From Brevinematales bacterium (GTDB lineage: Bacteria > Spirochaetota > Brevinematia > Brevinematales > GWF1-51-8), in NCBI GenBank assembly GCA_013177895.1, contig JABLXV010000010.1, forward strand, positions 1-64,000: a stretch of 64,000 nt of DNA, written 5' to 3'. This document shows, in pieces, positions 5,203-12,653 of the stretch. Each line of letters opens with the position of its first letter. Position 1 is the first letter of the stretch. The notes beneath the pieces are model-generated. The model worked only from the letters and a program-made list of their open reading frames with translations. It did no database searches and was not told the DNA's origin. The translations under genes and the position numbers were made by a program.

Positions 5203-5721
5203 ATGGAAAAAATAGAAAGTTCTGTCAGTGTGTACGATTTCTCCGCGAAAACCATCACCGGAGAAAATAAGGATTTGTCTTCATATCAGGGGAAAGTGTT
5301 GATGATCGTCAATACCGCGAGTCTCTGCGGGTTTACGCCGCAGTACGCCGGCCTGCAGGAACTTTACCGGAAATACCGTTCGGACGGCCTCGAGATACTG
5401 GGATTCCCCTCCGACCAGTTCGCCCATCAGGAACCGGGTACCGACGGGGAGATACTCAAATTCACGAAGGAAAAGTACGGGGTGGAGTTCCAGATGTTTT
5501 CGAAGATCGAGGTGAACGGCGCGGGCGCGCATCCTCTCTATCAATGGCTGACCACCGCCGCGCGGGGGTTTATGGGCACCAAGGCGATCAAGTGGAATTT
5601 TACCAAGTTCCTGTTCGGCCGCAGGGGTAACTTATTCAAACGTTACTCGTCCCAGACCGAACCGTCCGCGATAGAGAAGGATATCATCGCGCTGATAGGA
5701 CTTGTGGATTTTTTTAACTAA
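5203..5721 (+). CDS. Glutathione peroxidase family (cysteine type), with a CRISPR-repeat-encoded C-terminus
   Basis: The 172-residue protein reduces peroxides, probably with thioredoxin because the active site is Cys rather than selenocysteine. The catalytic set is visible: C42 in NTASLCGFTPQY, Q76 in HQEPG and W131-N132 in KWNFTKF. A GGAGG ribosome site precedes the ATG. The last seven residues (GLVDFFN, 166-172) and the stop codon lie inside the first, degenerate CRISPR repeat (5694-5729). The ancestral C-terminus was therefore replaced or extended. The family usually ends near residue 160-165, so the enzyme is probably functional. Confidence 0.93.
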   Translation: MEKIESSVSVYDFSAKTITGENKDLSSYQGKVLMIVNTASLCGFTPQYAGLQELYRKYRSDGLEILGFPSDQFAHQEPGTDGEILKFTKEKYGVEFQMFSKIEVNGAGAHPLYQWLTTAARGFMGTKAIKWNFTKFLFGRRGNLFKRYSSQTEPSAIEKDIIALIGLVDFFN

Positions 5722-6652
5722 GGTATAATCGAGATACAAATCAAATCGATCATATCGAGGCTGGGACTTGTGGATTTTTTTAACTAAGGTATAATTCGAT
5801 AACCTCCTTCACCTGATCGTCCGTTGCTGGGACTTGTGGATTTTTTTAACTAAGGTATAATTTTAAAAATGTCGCCGTTACAGTATTCAATGCTGGGACT
5901 TGTGGATTTTTTTAACTAAGGTATAATTCCGGCCGTCACGTCCTATATATTTTACAAGCTGGGACTTGTGGATTTTTTTAACTAAGGTATAATAGGTTTT
6001 TTGCGTTCGTGATCGCGGTCTTCGCTGGGACTTGTGGATTTTTTTAACTAAGGTATAATCATGTTTAATTCTTTTGCTATTTCTTCGCAGCTGGGACTTG
6101 TGGATTTTTTTAACTAAGGTATAATCATGCCCAAACAATGGCAGTAGAATTTAACGCTGGGACTTGTGGATTTTTTTAACTAAGGTATAATCCGCCGGAG
6201 TGAGGAGTATTTCTCCCCGAGCTGGGACTTGTGGATTTTTTTAACTAAGGTATAATAGAAGTCAGTTTATCAACGTCACGGATAAGGCTGGGACTTGTGG
6301 ATTTTTTTAACTAAGGTATAATAAACTGTCGGGCGCGCCCGACACTTTTTTCGCTGGGACTTGTGGATTTTTTTAACTAAGGTATAATATGTGTGGGTTT
6401 TATTGCCGCGCGACATTTGCTGGGACTTGTGGATTTTTTTAACTAAGGTATAATGCGATCTGCGTGGATGTGCACGTGCACCGGGCTGGGACTTGTGGAT
6501 TTTTTTAACTAAGGTATAATAAACGGATTGGTTTTCCAGAAGATCGATTTGCTGGGACTTGTGGATTTTTTTAACTAAGGTATAATATCATTAAGGATTT
6601 CCCCATCGTAGAATGAGCTGGGACTTGTGGATTTTTTTAACTAAGGTATAAT
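5694..6652 (+). CRISPR. Type II-C CRISPR array: 15 repeats of 36 bp, 14 spacers
   Basis: Fourteen identical 36-bp repeats start at 5760, 5826, 5892, 5958, 6024, 6090, 6156, 6221, 6287, 6353, 6419, 6485, 6551 and 6617. They begin GCTGGGACTTGTGGAT and end AAGGTATAAT. A degenerate first repeat (5694-5729) matches over its last 32 bp. Spacers are 30 bp, with one of 29 (6192-6220). The plus strand is the crRNA strand: the repeat 5' half pairs with the tracrRNA anti-repeat near cas9. Each repeat carries TTGTGG (repeat bases 9-14) and a perfect TATAAT (31-36) 16 bp apart. This is the internal-promoter layout known from Neisseria and Campylobacter II-C arrays. Starts about 7 nt into a spacer would give roughly 24-nt guides. 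Confidence 0.98.
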
Positions 6653-6696
6653 ATCTCCCGTGTATCTCGTTGATATTTCGGGAGATATTATGCTTT
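6649..6696 (+). terminator. Inverted repeat closing the cas-proximal end of the array
   Basis: A perfect 12-bp inverted repeat (6649-6660 and 6679-6690) with an 18-nt loop is followed by TGCTTTTT. The left arm includes the last four bases of the final CRISPR repeat. Transcripts reading through the array would meet a terminator-like hairpin here. A transcript starting from the last repeat's own promoter (near 6659) would lack the left arm. An alternative role is a leader or integration anchor for Cas1-Cas2. Confidence 0.5.
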
Positions 6697-6709
6697 TTCA
6701 GGAAAAATA

Positions 6710-7048
6710 CTAGAATAATAAGAGTTGATCCGGCGGATCTTCGGCCTTTTTTTTCGTTCGCCCGTAAAATACTTCCATATCGCCGAATTGTTTATCGGTA
6801 ATCATGATCAATCTGACCTGCCCTTCTGTGGGAATAATCTGTTTGATTCGGTTTGCATAGGTTTGGCAGTTTTCTCTGGAGGTCGTGTAACGCGCATAGA
6901 CAGAGTATTGAAGCATGGAAAAACCTTCAGCTAATAGCCTTCTTCTGAAAGTTGTATAAGCTTTACGCTGACGGTGTTCCATAACGGGCAGATCGAATAT
7001 GACGAATAACCACATACCTTTGTATTCCGACGGTATTTCCCGTTTCAT
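6710..7048 (-). CDS. cas2: CRISPR-associated endonuclease Cas2
   Basis: Cas2 partners Cas1 in spacer integration. The protein has the type II Cas2 core GMWLFVIFDLPVMEHRQRK with the conserved Asp after the first strand, then RRRLLAEGFSMLQYSVYAR. The start chosen here (MKREIPSEYKG) gives 112 residues, the usual length. A longer reading to 7120 adds 24 residues with no family match and overlaps cas1 by 32 bp; neither start has a strong ribosome site. It is the last gene of the cas9-cas1-cas2 operon and faces the array across a 57-bp gap. Confidence 0.93.
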   Translation of the reverse strand: MKREIPSEYKGMWLFVIFDLPVMEHRQRKAYTTFRRRLLAEGFSMLQYSVYARYTTSRENCQTYANRIKQIIPTEGQVRLIMITDKQFGDMEVFYGRTKKKAEDPPDQLLLF

Positions 7049-7088
7049 ATGATTTATTTTCGGATAATGATTTATAGAATATAAGTGT

Positions 7089-7985
7089 TTATACGATGAG
7101 CGATTCAGGTAAAACGACATCCTTTCTCTTTTTCTCGAATATATTGAATACGGAAACCGTCAATTTAGTTAAAGCGTCAAAGATAGAAATATTTTCCTTT
7201 TTCATTCTTACGGACCCGGTAAGTATTTCCAGAATTCTTCTTTTTGTATCCTTATCTACTTCTTCGAAGGGGCTTTTTTCATTGAGTAGCTCGAATACTT
7301 TTTTATCCACCATAGGGCGAAAAGGTTCCATAAGATCGTCGGCAAGGCGAAAAGCGTCATATTGATTATGATGGTGTATTCCGAAAGAAGGATGAAGCCC
7401 TGAGGAACAGATGGCCCGGGCAGTACATGCGCGGAGAATAGTGTATCCGTAATTCAGAAAGCGGTTGTGGTCGCAGGCGTCTCTATCCCGCTTGAATTCT
7501 TTCCCGAACAATATTTTCCAATAAATTCGGGATGACTGCCCTTCGATGTTTTCAGGATCCCCCGACTGTACCAGTCCCGCCATTTGCTTCAGTCCGCCGT
7601 CCTGTTTGAGTTTATTAAATAATAACTCCGATTGGAAAAGAATTTTCTTCCGGACGATTTCTTTCCAGATATGTTTTTTTAACGGTAGCGAAGCGTTGAT
7701 CTGTGTGTCATAGTTCTTCGCCGCAGTAGTATGAACACCGACCGGGAGAAACATACCGGCAGGTAAATACCGGTTATCGCATAGTACCACCATGCCCCCG
7801 GATTGAATGATAGCTACAATCGCAGATTGGGTTATTGTGATTGCGGGATTGGACAGTAATAAAACGCCAACCTCTTCCACTGGAATGGTGTGCTTTTCGC
7901 CTTCATGTATCCTTATCTCGATTAAGCTGTTTGTCAGGTGTACATAAGCTCCAGTATCTGATAGCTCGATAATACGGTTAGTCAT
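7089..7985 (-). CDS. cas1: CRISPR-associated endonuclease/integrase Cas1 (type II)
   Basis: The 298-residue protein matches the length and layout of type II Cas1. Catalytic residues are visible: E148 (NIEGQSSRIYW), the histidine cluster H204-H206 (GIHHHNQYDAF) and the acidic D217/E220 (LADDLMEP). The N-terminal beta domain begins RIIELSDTGAYVHL. The start overlaps the cas9 stop in ATGACTAA, so it is probably translated by coupling. No csn2 or cas4 follows, which places the locus in subtype II-C. Confidence 0.96.
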   Translation of the reverse strand: MTNRIIELSDTGAYVHLTNSLIEIRIHEGEKHTIPVEEVGVLLLSNPAITITQSAIVAIIQSGGMVVLCDNRYLPAGMFLPVGVHTTAAKNYDTQINASLPLKKHIWKEIVRKKILFQSELLFNKLKQDGGLKQMAGLVQSGDPENIEGQSSRIYWKILFGKEFKRDRDACDHNRFLNYGYTILRACTARAICSSGLHPSFGIHHHNQYDAFRLADDLMEPFRPMVDKKVFELLNEKSPFEEVDKDTKRRILEILTGSVRMKKENISIFDALTKLTVSVFNIFEKKRKDVVLPESLIV

Positions 7986-10900
7986 TTGCGTATCGCACTT
8001 CGCCGAACGGGGTTAGTATTACTTTCCTACAGTTTGAAATACGTAAGGTATCAGGCATTTTTGAAAACCATTCTTTTGCTTCTTTAATATCTTTTTGTTT
8101 CCTAGCATCAAGAGATTTGACAAACATAATTTGAAGACTTTCCGGTATAGATCGAACTACAAAGAGTTCTCTTTTATCGTTCATATCCAATTCAATCATT
8201 GTTTTTTCATGAAGGCTGAATTTAAACTTCTTCCCTTCTCCAAAGTCGCGTAGGATCACAGGCTCGTGGTTCTTTTTTCTCCGATAAGCCTCGAACATCG
8301 ATACGCAATAACCTTCCCATTTGATTTCCTGCCCATTTTCGTCCAATACCGCTACAATTTCCATATGGTGATTGGATTCGTTTGCGACCCTGCGTAATCT
8401 ATCCCCGGATCCGATTGTAAACGTTTTTAAATTAGTCTCGATTATTACCGATTTAACGGGAATATTGATACCGTCTTTCCCCTCGATAACAGGAAGGTTG
8501 ACAGGGTCGGAAAATATTTTCTGCGGTTCCGCTTCACTCTTCTGCAGTAGTATCTGCTCGACTTTTCCTCTGATAAAGGAGTCCTTGATTTTCTGCACTT
8601 CATTTTTAGAAAGCGATTCCAGTTTCTTGCGGATAGTGACTTTCCCTTCTTCTCCGGTATCCCCGTAAAAGGTATCTGCGTGAAGTTTCCCGCTGACCTT
8701 ATTGCTGATGTGGTGAATCGGGATAATCGTTTCCACCTTTTTTTCCAGTTCGGAGAAGAATCCTTCCCACGGTTCGGCCTTTCCGGGAATCCTGGCCTTC
8801 CCGTAAATCCAGCTATGTTTGGCATAGTCCGCAAGTTCTTTGATCGAACGCCCGCTGGTCAGCGCGATGGCGACCGCATCCACAGCATGATGACGGTGAT
8901 CATCCCGGTTCTTTTTGTCGCCGCCCAAGGCTCGGTTCATCCCGTAATATCCGCGCAGATAGGCGGTAATCGCGCCCGAATTGCAGTATATCTTTCTATT
9001 TCCGTCTTCGTCCCATAATCCGCCATAAAGATATGATAGGTACTGCATGGCGAGTTTAGAAGCATAGCGGGTATCGTTCATATGCCGGTCGGTAAAGTCC
9101 TCGAAATAACTGGCATCGGCCATCATGAACCGGTCCAGCTTAATATCCCTGAATTTTCCCCTGAAACGGCTGACCCGTTCCTGTATAAGATTATATTTAT
9201 CGGGATTTGATATATATGCCTCGTAAGGCGTCTGGTCTCGTTTCACCGTGCGGTTCTCTTCATTATAGCAAAGTGTTTTATTAGCAAAAGAATCTTCGAG
9301 GCTCCTGCTGAGCGGAATAATATGCTCGATATCGAATTCCGGGGTAGGCCCGAAAAGAGCGGCGTGACTAATCGATTTCCCGGTATAAGGGCATTCCCAA
9401 TGGCTTTCTTCGGCAAGAAGGTATTTAGTGATCGTTTCACGCGACGGGTTCGTAATCCCGTTGCTTTCCAGATAGGCCTCCGCGCGTTTCCGCTCCTTCT
9501 CGTTCTCCCGGTTATCCTGAATCATCTTGGCGCGCCTTTCTTTGGACGCCTTCATCTCACGGGCAAGCTCAATGTGAATTTCCTGTGGGAGTCCGTATCG
9601 GGTAATAACCGCGTTCACACATCGTCTAACCTCTGTTAAACAGCGTTTGACTAACGGATTTGTTAAATTCTGCAGGCTCTTTTCCAGCATCGGTATTTGT
9701 TCGAGAATAGTCGTCTTTTGATGAAATTCGCCATATATATCCTTCACTGCCTCGGGGTAGGAAATCCCCTTTTTCATTCCGGGAAGTATTTTCTTCAGTG
9801 CCTTGAGCGATAATCCGCAGTACCCTTCTTCGAGTACTGCCTCACTGAGCAATTCGGCTTTTTCTGCCGTTAATCCCCATTTTGTCTTTCCTAAAGCTTT
9901 TAACCTCTCGATACTTTGAATGGAGTTGATATCGTGAAGGAGGTCCTCTTTTTGTACTCCCGTAAACGTTTCATATTCATCGCCGAATATCTGGGAAAGC
10001 ACATGATTGGTCTTGTTCCCTAATAGCCGTGTTTCGCCCCCCTCTTCAAAATTGATCTTGGTACCTTTTGCAGGGAGATTGAGGAGTTTTTTGGTTTCCG
10101 TAAGCGTCAGCCGATCGGTTTTATCAAGAGCCTTAAAAAGTATGTCACTTTCTTCATAGGACAGTTTCCGGCTCGGTTTCTTCTCCTCCATTATCCTCAG
10201 GTTATTCAGGGTTTGGAGAATCCTGAATTGCTGAGCCTCGATCCGGTACCACGGACAGCGCTTTGATGTTTTCTCATATTCGCACATTCCCACCAGATGG
10301 CGCGAACTTTTTAGAGGCCGCTGGAAGAATAGCGCGTCTTTGAGTTTGTTCTTATAATCTTCGTTTAGAAGTTGTGGATAGAATTGCCGTTGTTTTTCGA
10401 AGATGGTCTCGAATTCATCGAGGTACATATCCCTTCCGGTATATCTCCCCCTGATCCTTTTCTCCAAGGGATTGCTTTTCGAGTAATGCTCTCCGATTGT
10501 CCGATTGCCTGAGTTCTCGATTTCTTGATGTAGTTCTGATATTCCTTTTTTTACTTTTCCGTAGTCGTCCTGCTTTCTTAATTCCTTTCGATTGGATAAA
10601 AAGCCCCTACGTTGTGCGAGATGGTACAATACTCTTGCGAGTTCTTCAGGGGATAGTTGATGGTCGAGCGCGCGGGTGCGGAGATAGTACGGGATGATGT
10701 GGAAAAACTGCTTCGGATCGAAGGATTGGTCGAGATATTTTCCTACGGTTTCCTTATCGATCCGTTCGATAAATCCTTCCCTCGTTTCGCCTGACGGGAA
10801 TAAACCAATATTTTTCAGAAGATAATAAACTTTCAGTTTCCGGCGTCTTCTTCGATCCGATTGCCGCCTGATCTGGCGGGCGTTTCTCCTGTCGCTCGCG

Positions 10901-11070
10901 GCGGTGACCGGATTGGATGTCTCAAGGTCTTTCATTCCCGGATTGAATATCCTGACACCCATGCCAAGAATGGCTTTGGGATTCTTTTTACCGTCGTTTT
11001 GGATCACAGCCCACCCTAAGGAATTACTACCCAAATCCAGTCCTAGGATGTAATCTGATTTTTTATCCAT
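7978..11070 (-). CDS. cas9: Compact type II-C CRISPR effector nuclease Cas9
   Basis: The 1030-residue Cas9 is an RNA-guided DNA endonuclease loaded with crRNA and tracrRNA. All catalytic residues are present: RuvC-I D12 (GLDLGSNSLGWA), RuvC-II E501 (IHIELAREM), HNH H583 with N606 (FDIEHIIPLS) and RuvC-III H728/D731 (HRHHAVDAVAIA). The arginine-rich bridge helix spans about 60-80. The length is close to the Campylobacter and Neisseria II-C enzymes. The C-terminal PAM-interacting region (about 850-1030) has no recognised match, so the PAM is unknown. An ideal GGAGG site lies 6 bp before the ATG. The gene heads the cas9-cas1-cas2 operon, opposite in strand to the tracrRNA and array. Confidence 0.98.
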   Translation of the reverse strand: MDKKSDYILGLDLGSNSLGWAVIQNDGKKNPKAILGMGVRIFNPGMKDLETSNPVTAASDRRNARQIRRQSDRRRRRKLKVYYLLKNIGLFPSGETREGFIERIDKETVGKYLDQSFDPKQFFHIIPYYLRTRALDHQLSPEELARVLYHLAQRRGFLSNRKELRKQDDYGKVKKGISELHQEIENSGNRTIGEHYSKSNPLEKRIRGRYTGRDMYLDEFETIFEKQRQFYPQLLNEDYKNKLKDALFFQRPLKSSRHLVGMCEYEKTSKRCPWYRIEAQQFRILQTLNNLRIMEEKKPSRKLSYEESDILFKALDKTDRLTLTETKKLLNLPAKGTKINFEEGGETRLLGNKTNHVLSQIFGDEYETFTGVQKEDLLHDINSIQSIERLKALGKTKWGLTAEKAELLSEAVLEEGYCGLSLKALKKILPGMKKGISYPEAVKDIYGEFHQKTTILEQIPMLEKSLQNLTNPLVKRCLTEVRRCVNAVITRYGLPQEIHIELAREMKASKERRAKMIQDNRENEKERKRAEAYLESNGITNPSRETITKYLLAEESHWECPYTGKSISHAALFGPTPEFDIEHIIPLSRSLEDSFANKTLCYNEENRTVKRDQTPYEAYISNPDKYNLIQERVSRFRGKFRDIKLDRFMMADASYFEDFTDRHMNDTRYASKLAMQYLSYLYGGLWDEDGNRKIYCNSGAITAYLRGYYGMNRALGGDKKNRDDHRHHAVDAVAIALTSGRSIKELADYAKHSWIYGKARIPGKAEPWEGFFSELEKKVETIIPIHHISNKVSGKLHADTFYGDTGEEGKVTIRKKLESLSKNEVQKIKDSFIRGKVEQILLQKSEAEPQKIFSDPVNLPVIEGKDGINIPVKSVIIETNLKTFTIGSGDRLRRVANESNHHMEIVAVLDENGQEIKWEGYCVSMFEAYRRKKNHEPVILRDFGEGKKFKFSLHEKTMIELDMNDKRELFVVRSIPESLQIMFVKSLDARKQKDIKEAKEWFSKMPDTLRISNCRKVILTPFGEVRYAND

Positions 11071-11096
11071 TTATTCCTCCGAAAGTGAATATTCTA

Positions 11097-11125
11097 TTGA
11101 CTCTTTTTTTGAAAACAATTAGAAT
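11097..11125 (+). promoter_or_regulatory. Promoter of the tracrRNA
   Basis: TTGACT (11097-11102) and TAGAAT (11120-11125) are 17 bp apart, each 5 of 6 to sigma70 consensus. The expected start near 11132 is the first base of the anti-repeat. Confidence 0.7.
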
Positions 11126-11131
11126 AATACT

Positions 11132-11212
11132 ATCCACAAGCCCTAGTAAGGGTACACCACGCGGGCAAGTTCCTACGGGAAATCCCTCAGCGGCCTTCGG
11201 GCCGTTTTTTTT
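11132..11212 (+). ncRNA. tracrRNA of the type II-C system
   Basis: Bases 11132-11147 are the anti-repeat. They pair with the first 16 nt of the CRISPR repeat with 13 Watson-Crick pairs, two G-U pairs and one C-A mismatch. After it come short stem-loops, including GGGAAATCCC at 11178-11187, and a GC-rich tetraloop terminator. The predicted RNA is about 80 nt. It is divergent from cas9 and lies 60 bp upstream of its ATG. The pairing is seen directly; the 5' end is inferred from the promoter. Confidence 0.88.
11191..11212 (+). terminator. Intrinsic terminator of the tracrRNA
   Basis: CGGCC-TTCG-GGCCG (11191-11204) is followed by eight T residues, a textbook rho-independent terminator. It also serves as the last stem of the tracrRNA. 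Confidence 0.9.
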
Positions 11213-11216
11213 ATTT

Positions 11217-11244
11217 ATTATAACCCCTCAGGAATATTTGTCAA
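11217..11244 (-). promoter_or_regulatory. Perfect consensus promoter for the cas9-cas1-cas2 operon
   Basis: Read on the minus strand, TTGACA (11244-11239) and TATAAT (11222-11217) are both exact and 16 bp apart. The start would fall near 11210. The cas9 leader would then be about 140 nt and complementary to the complete tracrRNA. Confidence 0.65.
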
Positions 11245-11300
11245 TTATACGAATATTATACTCATTTGTTATTGATTGTAGTTTAAGAAAGAAATGACCG

Positions 11301-12653
11301 CTAGGGCAGGGTGACCTGAATCGCCGCGCGGATTTCCTTGAGGATAGCCCCGTTGGTGGATTCCTTATTCAGCCATACGTCCGATACGGTGACTCCCCCG
11401 ATAATGCGATTGATCTGGTTGGTATCGGCGTATGCCCATGTGTCGTGCATGATATACGGGACATTGCCTACCTTGCCGAGGTACAGCATGATATGCCCCT
11501 TCTTGTAGATCAGCGAGGTCGCGGGCGGGAGTTTCAGGAGCGCGGGGATTTTCGCGTCATACGTCGCGTTCGTCTCGAACCTGCATATCAGCTTTCCGCA
11601 GAGGATTTGTTCCGACGTGTTGCGCGGGAGATAGATACCCGCGCACGCGAACACCTGCCAGATAAACCGCGAACAGTCCTGCTCGCCCCACATATCGCCC
11701 CATCCGTAGGGAGTATACAGCAGCCGGAACGCCTGATCGAGGATGACGCGCGGAGTATAGGGGAGATACCCCTTATGGACGTCGGATTTCTTGATATATG
11801 CGGGCTTGACCTCATACTCGCCGTTCTTGGTCTTGACCGGCACTTTAACCTTCCATACCCACGCGTTCGCCTCGCCGGTCAGCGGAAGGCGAGTCCCCAT
11901 TCGGACGAATTCGAACGGCTTGGTCAATCCCTTGTCCCAGTACAGGTCGGCCTTGGGGCTGGTCACGACGAGAAATAGTTCGGACGATATGTAATTTTTA
12001 AGCTGGGTGAGCGAGCAGTAAACTACTTTCGACGACTCGATCCAGCCCTCGGTCTGGTCTCCCCGGACGAATAGCCATTTTCCGTCCTTCGACTTATGCA
12101 TGATCGCGAGCGGGGTGCCCACCTCGGCGAGACTGAGCTGGAGACGGTCGAAATTCTCCTCCGGCTCGTTGAAAATCCCCTGCATGGTCGGCATAACGCG
12201 GAGATTCGCCATCGCGGTCACGAGACCGTACTTCAGCTTGACCTTATACGGAAACCACTCCGCGTTCATATTTTTTTTAACATCCATGAGATTTGTCAAT
12301 GTGATTTTTTGCCCCGCCGACACGAGCGGCCCGATATCGTTAAGGATATAATAAAAATTGCCCCATATCAGGTTTTTAACGGTTTTCCCCTTTTTGGTCG
12401 GGCCGTAGTCAGGGATAGATGCGACCCCTGTTTGCGCGATGATGTACTGGTTGAGTTTACTGATCTGCTTGGATGTTAGGATGGCTTTATCGGGCGAGGG
12501 GTGTATGCCTATCCAGAATCCCGCCGACATCATCTCGGGTCTGATCCCCGGCAGGATTGCGGGGGCGGTCGTGGACGGCTGAATATTCGCGGAATAGACC
12601 GCCGCGATAAATAGAACGGTTACTGTAGGAATATAAAGTATTATCCGGCGCAT
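11301..12653 (-). CDS. Periplasmic SH3-NlpC/P60 family cell-wall hydrolase (paralogue 1)
   Basis: The 450-residue protein has an N-terminal signal peptide, an N-terminal stabilising domain, SH3b-like regions in the middle (GTPLAIMHKSKDGKWLFVRGDQTEGWI) and a C-terminal NlpC/P60 papain-fold domain. The nucleophile is C327 in EQDCSRFIWQ; the histidine is in KGHIMLYLG, followed by YIMHDTW. Such enzymes cleave peptidoglycan stem peptides. A GGAGGG site precedes the ATG. A paralogue with the same layout lies at 20162-21517. The two share GYTPR, AFRLLYTPYGW and the active-site blocks. Confidence 0.9.
   Translation of the reverse strand: MRRIILYIPTVTVLFIAAVYSANIQPSTTAPAILPGIRPEMMSAGFWIGIHPSPDKAILTSKQISKLNQYIIAQTGVASIPDYGPTKKGKTVKNLIWGNFYYILNDIGPLVSAGQKITLTNLMDVKKNMNAEWFPYKVKLKYGLVTAMANLRVMPTMQGIFNEPEENFDRLQLSLAEVGTPLAIMHKSKDGKWLFVRGDQTEGWIESSKVVYCSLTQLKNYISSELFLVVTSPKADLYWDKGLTKPFEFVRMGTRLPLTGEANAWVWKVKVPVKTKNGEYEVKPAYIKKSDVHKGYLPYTPRVILDQAFRLLYTPYGWGDMWGEQDCSRFIWQVFACAGIYLPRNTSEQILCGKLICRFETNATYDAKIPALLKLPPATSLIYKKGHIMLYLGKVGNVPYIMHDTWAYADTNQINRIIGGVTVSDVWLNKESTNGAILKEIRAAIQVTLP

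Follow-up and report, generated by a model that had tools for sequence, protein, structure and literature searches.

How does a conserved bacterial enzyme come to end in residues encoded by a CRISPR repeat, and why do the gene and the array put up with each other? The question is raised by a 64,000-nucleotide stretch of DNA from a Brevinematales bacterium (GCA_013177895.1, contig JABLXV010000010.1, positions 1 to 64,000; hereafter the window), in which a 172-codon gpx gene for glutathione peroxidase (5203–5721, + strand) runs into a CRISPR array. The gene was identified by Pfam PF00255 (GSHPx, E=2.3e-40), TIGR02540 and orthologue comparison. Its frame extends 28 nt into the terminal repeat, whose positions 26–28 (5719–5721) provide the stop; from codon 166 at 5698, GGA CTT GTG GAT TTT TTT AAC TAA is read within the repeat as GLVDFFN*. 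A first-pass annotation of this DNA had described a conserved protein with a C-terminus written by a CRISPR repeat and had proposed a comparison with orthologues lacking the array, which was run and bears the description out. The gene is present in three of the four genomes of the genus, the window's own included. In the array-free relative G003 (87% identical) the protein ends in ALLGK*, and in the array-free relative G002 (79% identical) in KALGLE*; the same seven-residue end is absent from both. Residues 166–172 and the stop had all been assigned to the repeat. These codons do lie in it, but protein alignment places Gly166 in all three proteins (window, G002 and G003), with LVDFFN in neither relative, and the repeat-derived part of gpx therefore comprises six residues, 167–172 (LVDFFN), and the stop. 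The tail and stop sit outside the conserved fold, because the TIGR02540 model stops at residue 165 in the profile search and none of the 42 solved-structure sequences matched to gpx aligns beyond residue 167; a structure prediction for gpx, with a mean pLDDT of 35.5, was too poor for use. The 39-bp stretch 5691–5729 contains ATA, which was considered as a 3-bp insertion into the repeat; this reading was rejected, as the protein alignment aligns ATA as a native gpx codon.

The array comprises 14 perfect copies of the 36-nt repeat GCTGGGACTTGTGGATTTTTTTAACTAAGGTATAAT (5760–6652, + strand), which together with the repeat fused to the gpx 3′ end (5694–5729, + strand) enclose 14 spacers of 30 nt, one of them 29 nt. 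Throughout the genome, the 32-nt repeat core was found at 15 places with at most three mismatches, all of them in this array, and the control gave no match. As had been noted at first pass, the fused repeat is identical to the consensus over its last 32 nt; the accompanying claim that gene sequence replaces its first four bases holds in so far as these are altered (GATA for GCTG), but only two of them differ (C2A and G4A). On the − strand follow cas2 (6710–7120; TIGR01573 above cut-off), a type II cas1 (7089–7985; TIGR03639, 269.9 bits against a cut-off of 120) and cas9 (7978–11070, 1030 aa; TIGR01865, 713 bits against a cut-off of 100). Upstream of cas9, a tracrRNA candidate on the + strand (11131–11213, ends approximate) carries the 15-nt anti-repeat ATCCACAAGCCCTAG, followed by a terminator-like hairpin and a T run; Rfam returned no tracrRNA match and only two weak, irrelevant ones. 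From the array to the neighbour gene, the cas strand holds no further long ORF, hence no csn2 or cas4 among long ORFs. Placed by gene content and the tracrRNA candidate, the system is classified as an ordinary type II-C CRISPR-Cas. Because the anti-repeat of the tracrRNA candidate sits on the + strand, this is taken as the crRNA strand; the gpx-side repeat is therefore the first on it, from which we infer that it is the oldest, "extra" repeat, at the 5′ end of the array.

Neither the genus mates nor the listed members of the same order and class have a match to this Cas9; matches occur in 53 of 392 genomes of the phylum (the window's own included), the best other being about 36% identical. A genome scan retrieved two closer relatives, 40% and 38% identical, neither with a detected array, while a Pigmentibacter plasmid encodes a Cas9 that is 35.8% identical and has a repeat sharing 10 of the first 12 nt. 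Exact searches of viral contigs with four of the 14 spacers, whole or trimmed, gave no match for any of them, and two matches of the whole array to phages, both at E=1, were taken as chance. Spacer 10 (6323–6352) forms an almost perfect palindrome with a T run behind it and is thus terminator-like (6327–6344 plus the T run); 27 of its 30 nt have no other copy in the four genus genomes at up to three mismatches. Directly 3′ of the last repeat and before cas2, an inverted repeat at 6653–6686, ATCTCCCG ... CGGGAGAT, may belong to the acquisition end. Two 26-nt stretches, at 6695–6720 after the array and at 11104–11129 at the likely tracrRNA promoter, are 77% alike, which may be chance.

The original end of gpx was found on the far side of the cas genes. 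Positions 11292–11303 read AAA TGA CCG CTA, where CTA corresponds to the reverse-complemented stop codon of the following gene, a convergent reading frame of 450 aa (11301–12653, − strand; NlpC/P60-like by eye) that adjoins gpx in G002 and G003. The equivalent sequence is GGG AAA TAA CCG TTA in G003 and TAA CGA TCA in G002, and the convergent stops of gpx and its neighbour are 3 nt apart in the window, G003 and G002 alike. Homology to the relatives and this stop spacing identify AAA (Lys) and TGA at 11292–11297 (+ strand) as the displaced native gpx end, which now lies 5.6 kb from gpx, with about 75 bp of A+T-rich DNA separating it from the tracrRNA terminator. Because the native AAA TGA was found there with its 3-nt spacing, the cassette lies between the Gly166 codon and the Lys–stop codons, and empty-site comparison places the whole insert at 5701–11291 (boundaries within about 3 nt). 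In G003, the contigs with gpx and with the neighbour overlap by 92 bp, giving a CRISPR-free site; in G002, the two genes are adjacent except for an HNH-like gene flanked by the copied 3′ end of the neighbour. These comparisons demonstrate both junctions, the CRISPR-free sites and the altered gpx C-terminus. The G+C content of the insert is 42.8%, compared with 47.0–58.0% in 98 segments outside it, and the most plausible reading of the CRISPR-Cas block is that foreign DNA has inserted here. A check for gpx DNA duplicated on both sides of the insert revealed neither a target duplication nor any other signature. Of the relatives' own insertions, that of G002 (L056 5940–7430) has two copies of the 3′ end of the neighbour bracketing the HNH-like gene, and at the L055/L057 junction of G003 an 84-column near-repeat of both gene ends surrounds a short insert; the gpx–neighbour boundary seems to be an insertion hotspot.

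It is very probable, in our view, that the cassette was acquired and joined inside the gpx end and that the fusion has been tolerated by way of the extra repeat. A type II-C cassette of about 5.6 kb (array, cas2, cas1, cas9 and tracrRNA; about 5701–11291) would have been gained horizontally and joined between the Gly166 codon and the Lys–stop codons, most simply by illegitimate recombination at a microhomology of 2–3 nt (GG/GGA), although this mechanism is a guess. The first repeat of the cassette would then have become the new gpx 3′ end, supplying six residues and a stop, and the old end would have been pushed to the far side. Had the genus instead started out with the CRISPR-Cas locus, to be lost later from G002 and G003, deletion would have had to recreate the complete gpx end, together with the 3-nt spacing of the stops, on two occasions. 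Only three genus genomes inform the site, two of them with other insertions there, which leaves some room for such a history; the low G+C content of the insert and the lack of a Cas9 match in the listed order and class mates make it very unlikely. Still less probable is an assembly artefact: the genome is in 112 contigs, arrays often break assemblies and G003 breaks near the site, but a single 83-kb contig holds both flanks in the relatives' gene order, and the very gpx codons that are missing open the far flank, a coincidence that a random chimera would not produce. The native gpx ends do resemble the repeat start (GCTGGGA in G002, GCTGGGG in G003), as if the repeat had been born from the gpx 3′ end by off-target Cas1–Cas2 integration, founding a new array in the gene. 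The native stop, displaced to the far side of the tracrRNA, contradicts this origin, and all of the cas block is contained in the insert; moreover, the repeat of the Pigmentibacter plasmid shares 10 of the 12 first nucleotides and the tracrRNA matches the repeat, which argues that the repeat predates the junction. We give it next to no credence.

A further alternative accepts the junction but supposes that the fusion was selected, coupling gpx expression to the array and protecting the terminal repeat. The gene is co-directional with the crRNA strand, and a scan of the interval from the gpx stop to the first spacers showed nothing terminator-like; transcription of gpx running into the first spacers is therefore plausible, as far as the DNA can tell, and same-strand gene stops recur at extra repeats, as described below. 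Since spacer 10 is terminator-like, however, transcripts entering in this way could cover no more than part of the array, and type II-C repeats usually carry their own promoters according to PMC12080349, which speaks against control of the array by gpx. The genes at other fused arrays are unrelated (a CAP protein and a UvrD-like helicase), so that no gpx-specific logic emerges. The suggestion, made at first pass, that the gene protects the terminal repeat from deletion finds no support by reasoning: recombination between two identical repeats leaves one, so the terminal repeat always survives without help from a gene. Selection for the fusion is thus quite unlikely. A further reading would have a class of type II-C loci place the extra repeat in a gene's coding end, where ribosomes block the tracrRNA and read-through feeds the oldest spacers. 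Repeat positions 1–16, the tracrRNA-pairing part, all lie upstream of the gpx stop. We regard this reading as improbable, if a little less so; were it true, translation through the extra repeat would be a further, ribosome-based silencing of extraneous crRNA.

Under the favoured reading of an acquired cassette and a tolerated fusion, tolerance would follow from what the extra repeat has to do. In type II-C systems new spacers are described as entering at the last repeat, the extra repeat being the oldest (PMC12080349 and PMC12638026); each repeat has its own promoter and 60% of extra repeats are mutated (PMC12080349), and PMC12638026 warns that type II-C orientation is hard to predict. The acquisition polarity used here is taken from these two papers, and the window represents one strain. 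With this polarity, new spacers would enter at the other end, next to cas2, and the extra repeat would be unused for acquisition and dispensable for tracrRNA pairing, having to keep only its promoter-like 3′ part for the first crRNA. TATAAT is kept in the extra repeat at 5724–5729; this hexamer is perfect at the repeat end, the −35 element is weak (3/6) and the site is absent from the promoter scan listing. Both changes, C2A and G4A, lie in the first 4 nt near the 5′ end and cost the repeat its terminal pairs with the tracrRNA, and the predicted duplex with the tracrRNA is −18.6 kcal/mol for the extra repeat versus −22.8 kcal/mol for the consensus; the weakened pairing should reduce useless "extraneous" crRNA with a gpx guide. 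In a first survey set, 16 of 24 extra repeats were mutated, and the mutated ones keep 56% of positions 1–8, 91% of positions 9–22 and 99% of positions 23–36; any sequence seems acceptable at the 5′ end, including the end of a gene. Stops occur in all three forward frames of the window repeat (positions 22, 26 and 33) and would end any incoming gene. The same holds for 26 of 37 distinct consensus repeats, which are partly related and so not 37 independent cases, whereas shuffles gave a mean of 6.0 and a maximum of 13. Because the 5′ end of the extra repeat may decay, its promoter-like 3′ part is intact and all frames are closed, the fusion would be tolerated by both partners, and spacer gain or loss would leave it undisturbed.

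To place the gpx junction among other arrays, 73 loci were fetched and examined together with the window, L043 and L044, and 38 arrays with a visible 5′ end were counted. Left out were loci in which no array was detected, arrays truncated by a contig end, one locus with Ns (L070), arrays of odd period or short consensus, and seven loci with II-A-like repeats (L098, L113–L117 and L119), judged by repeat only. The strand was set from the repeat ends in all arrays, without the tracrRNA. The set was counted without dereplication (L072 and L074 represent orthologous sites, and L130 contributes two arrays from one plasmid), and the first repeat of L072 was shifted 66 nt upstream to a weak copy recognised after L074. 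A same-strand ORF of at least 100 aa has its stop inside the extra repeat in 7 of 38 arrays, and between 10 nt before this repeat and its end in 10 of 38, compared with 1.03 and 1.34 expected from random places in the same loci, which include coding DNA. Without the window and one orthologous site, the counts are 5 of 36 inside (P=0.003) and 8 of 36 with the 10 nt before (P=3e-5), P values that assume independent arrays, an assumption that related genomes violate. Positions up to 10 nt after a same-strand stop make up 2.0% of intergenic positions, and 3 of 38 arrays start there besides the overlaps. Type II-C arrays thus show an apparent tendency to begin within the upstream gene's stop codon or immediately at it.

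Besides gpx, the same-strand stops inside a repeat are those of a CAP protein (L072 and L074) and a UvrD-like helicase (L091, stop at positions 1–3), both assigned by Pfam, an annotated plasmid CDS in an array fragment (L130, stop ending at position 1), and two ORFs that have no Pfam match and may not be genes (L102 and L105). Stops just before the repeat belong to a transposase-like ORF, judged by eye (L081, −6), YbjQ (L106, −6) and DUF3800 (L101, −10). An 85-aa ORF at L109, below the 100-aa limit and with no Pfam match, was not counted. The CAP gene is most like gpx, with its stop inside the extra repeat and a CRISPR-less orthologue, found in G156 (88% identical), whose last residues are the same, with different DNA beyond them. 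Unlike gpx, the CAP gene retains its native protein end (EK*), and the extra repeat is down to roughly its final 14 nt; here the array joined at the native stop, sharing the TAA. Of these cases, gpx goes furthest, with 28 nt of repeat read as gene.

The closest described systems are the type II-C loci with mutated extra repeats (Feussner et al. 2025, PMC12080349). The cas9–cas1–cas2 content is common to both, as are a 5′ extra repeat on the crRNA strand altered in its first nucleotides, weaker tracrRNA pairing and a retained promoter-like part; in the gpx case, by contrast, the altered stretch comes from a gene, and the repeat forms part of a coding sequence. Feussner et al., by their account of methods, dropped upstream regions below 30 nt, so that a case of the gpx type would fall outside their structure tests. 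A second likeness is that of a gpx transcript ending in a repeat to the precursors of the noncanonical crRNAs of Jiao et al. 2021 (PMC8224270), described in that paper as tracrRNA-pairable mRNA with a gene-derived guide upstream; here, pairing would instead involve a genuine CRISPR repeat located at a gene end, and Cas9 binding is putative. Pairing at the anti-repeat 3′ end mattered there, and this is the end weakened in the gpx extra repeat. Searching a partial library of the literature, we came across no paper recognisable as an account of a protein end encoded by a repeat. The individual components are known, and the array–gene fusion is an unusual junction and a mildly novel architecture. 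With insert-free sites in relatives, it offers a clean case of a CRISPR-Cas locus rewriting the end of a conserved protein. More interesting as a lead is the repeated occurrence of gene stops in contact with extra repeats, and the stop-codon tendency bears on how type II-C loci settle in genomes and how the extra repeat stays harmless. The same genome carries a second CRISPR array (L138 1–1420, contig C50) of 61-nt period beside another cas1, which by eye looks like type I-E.
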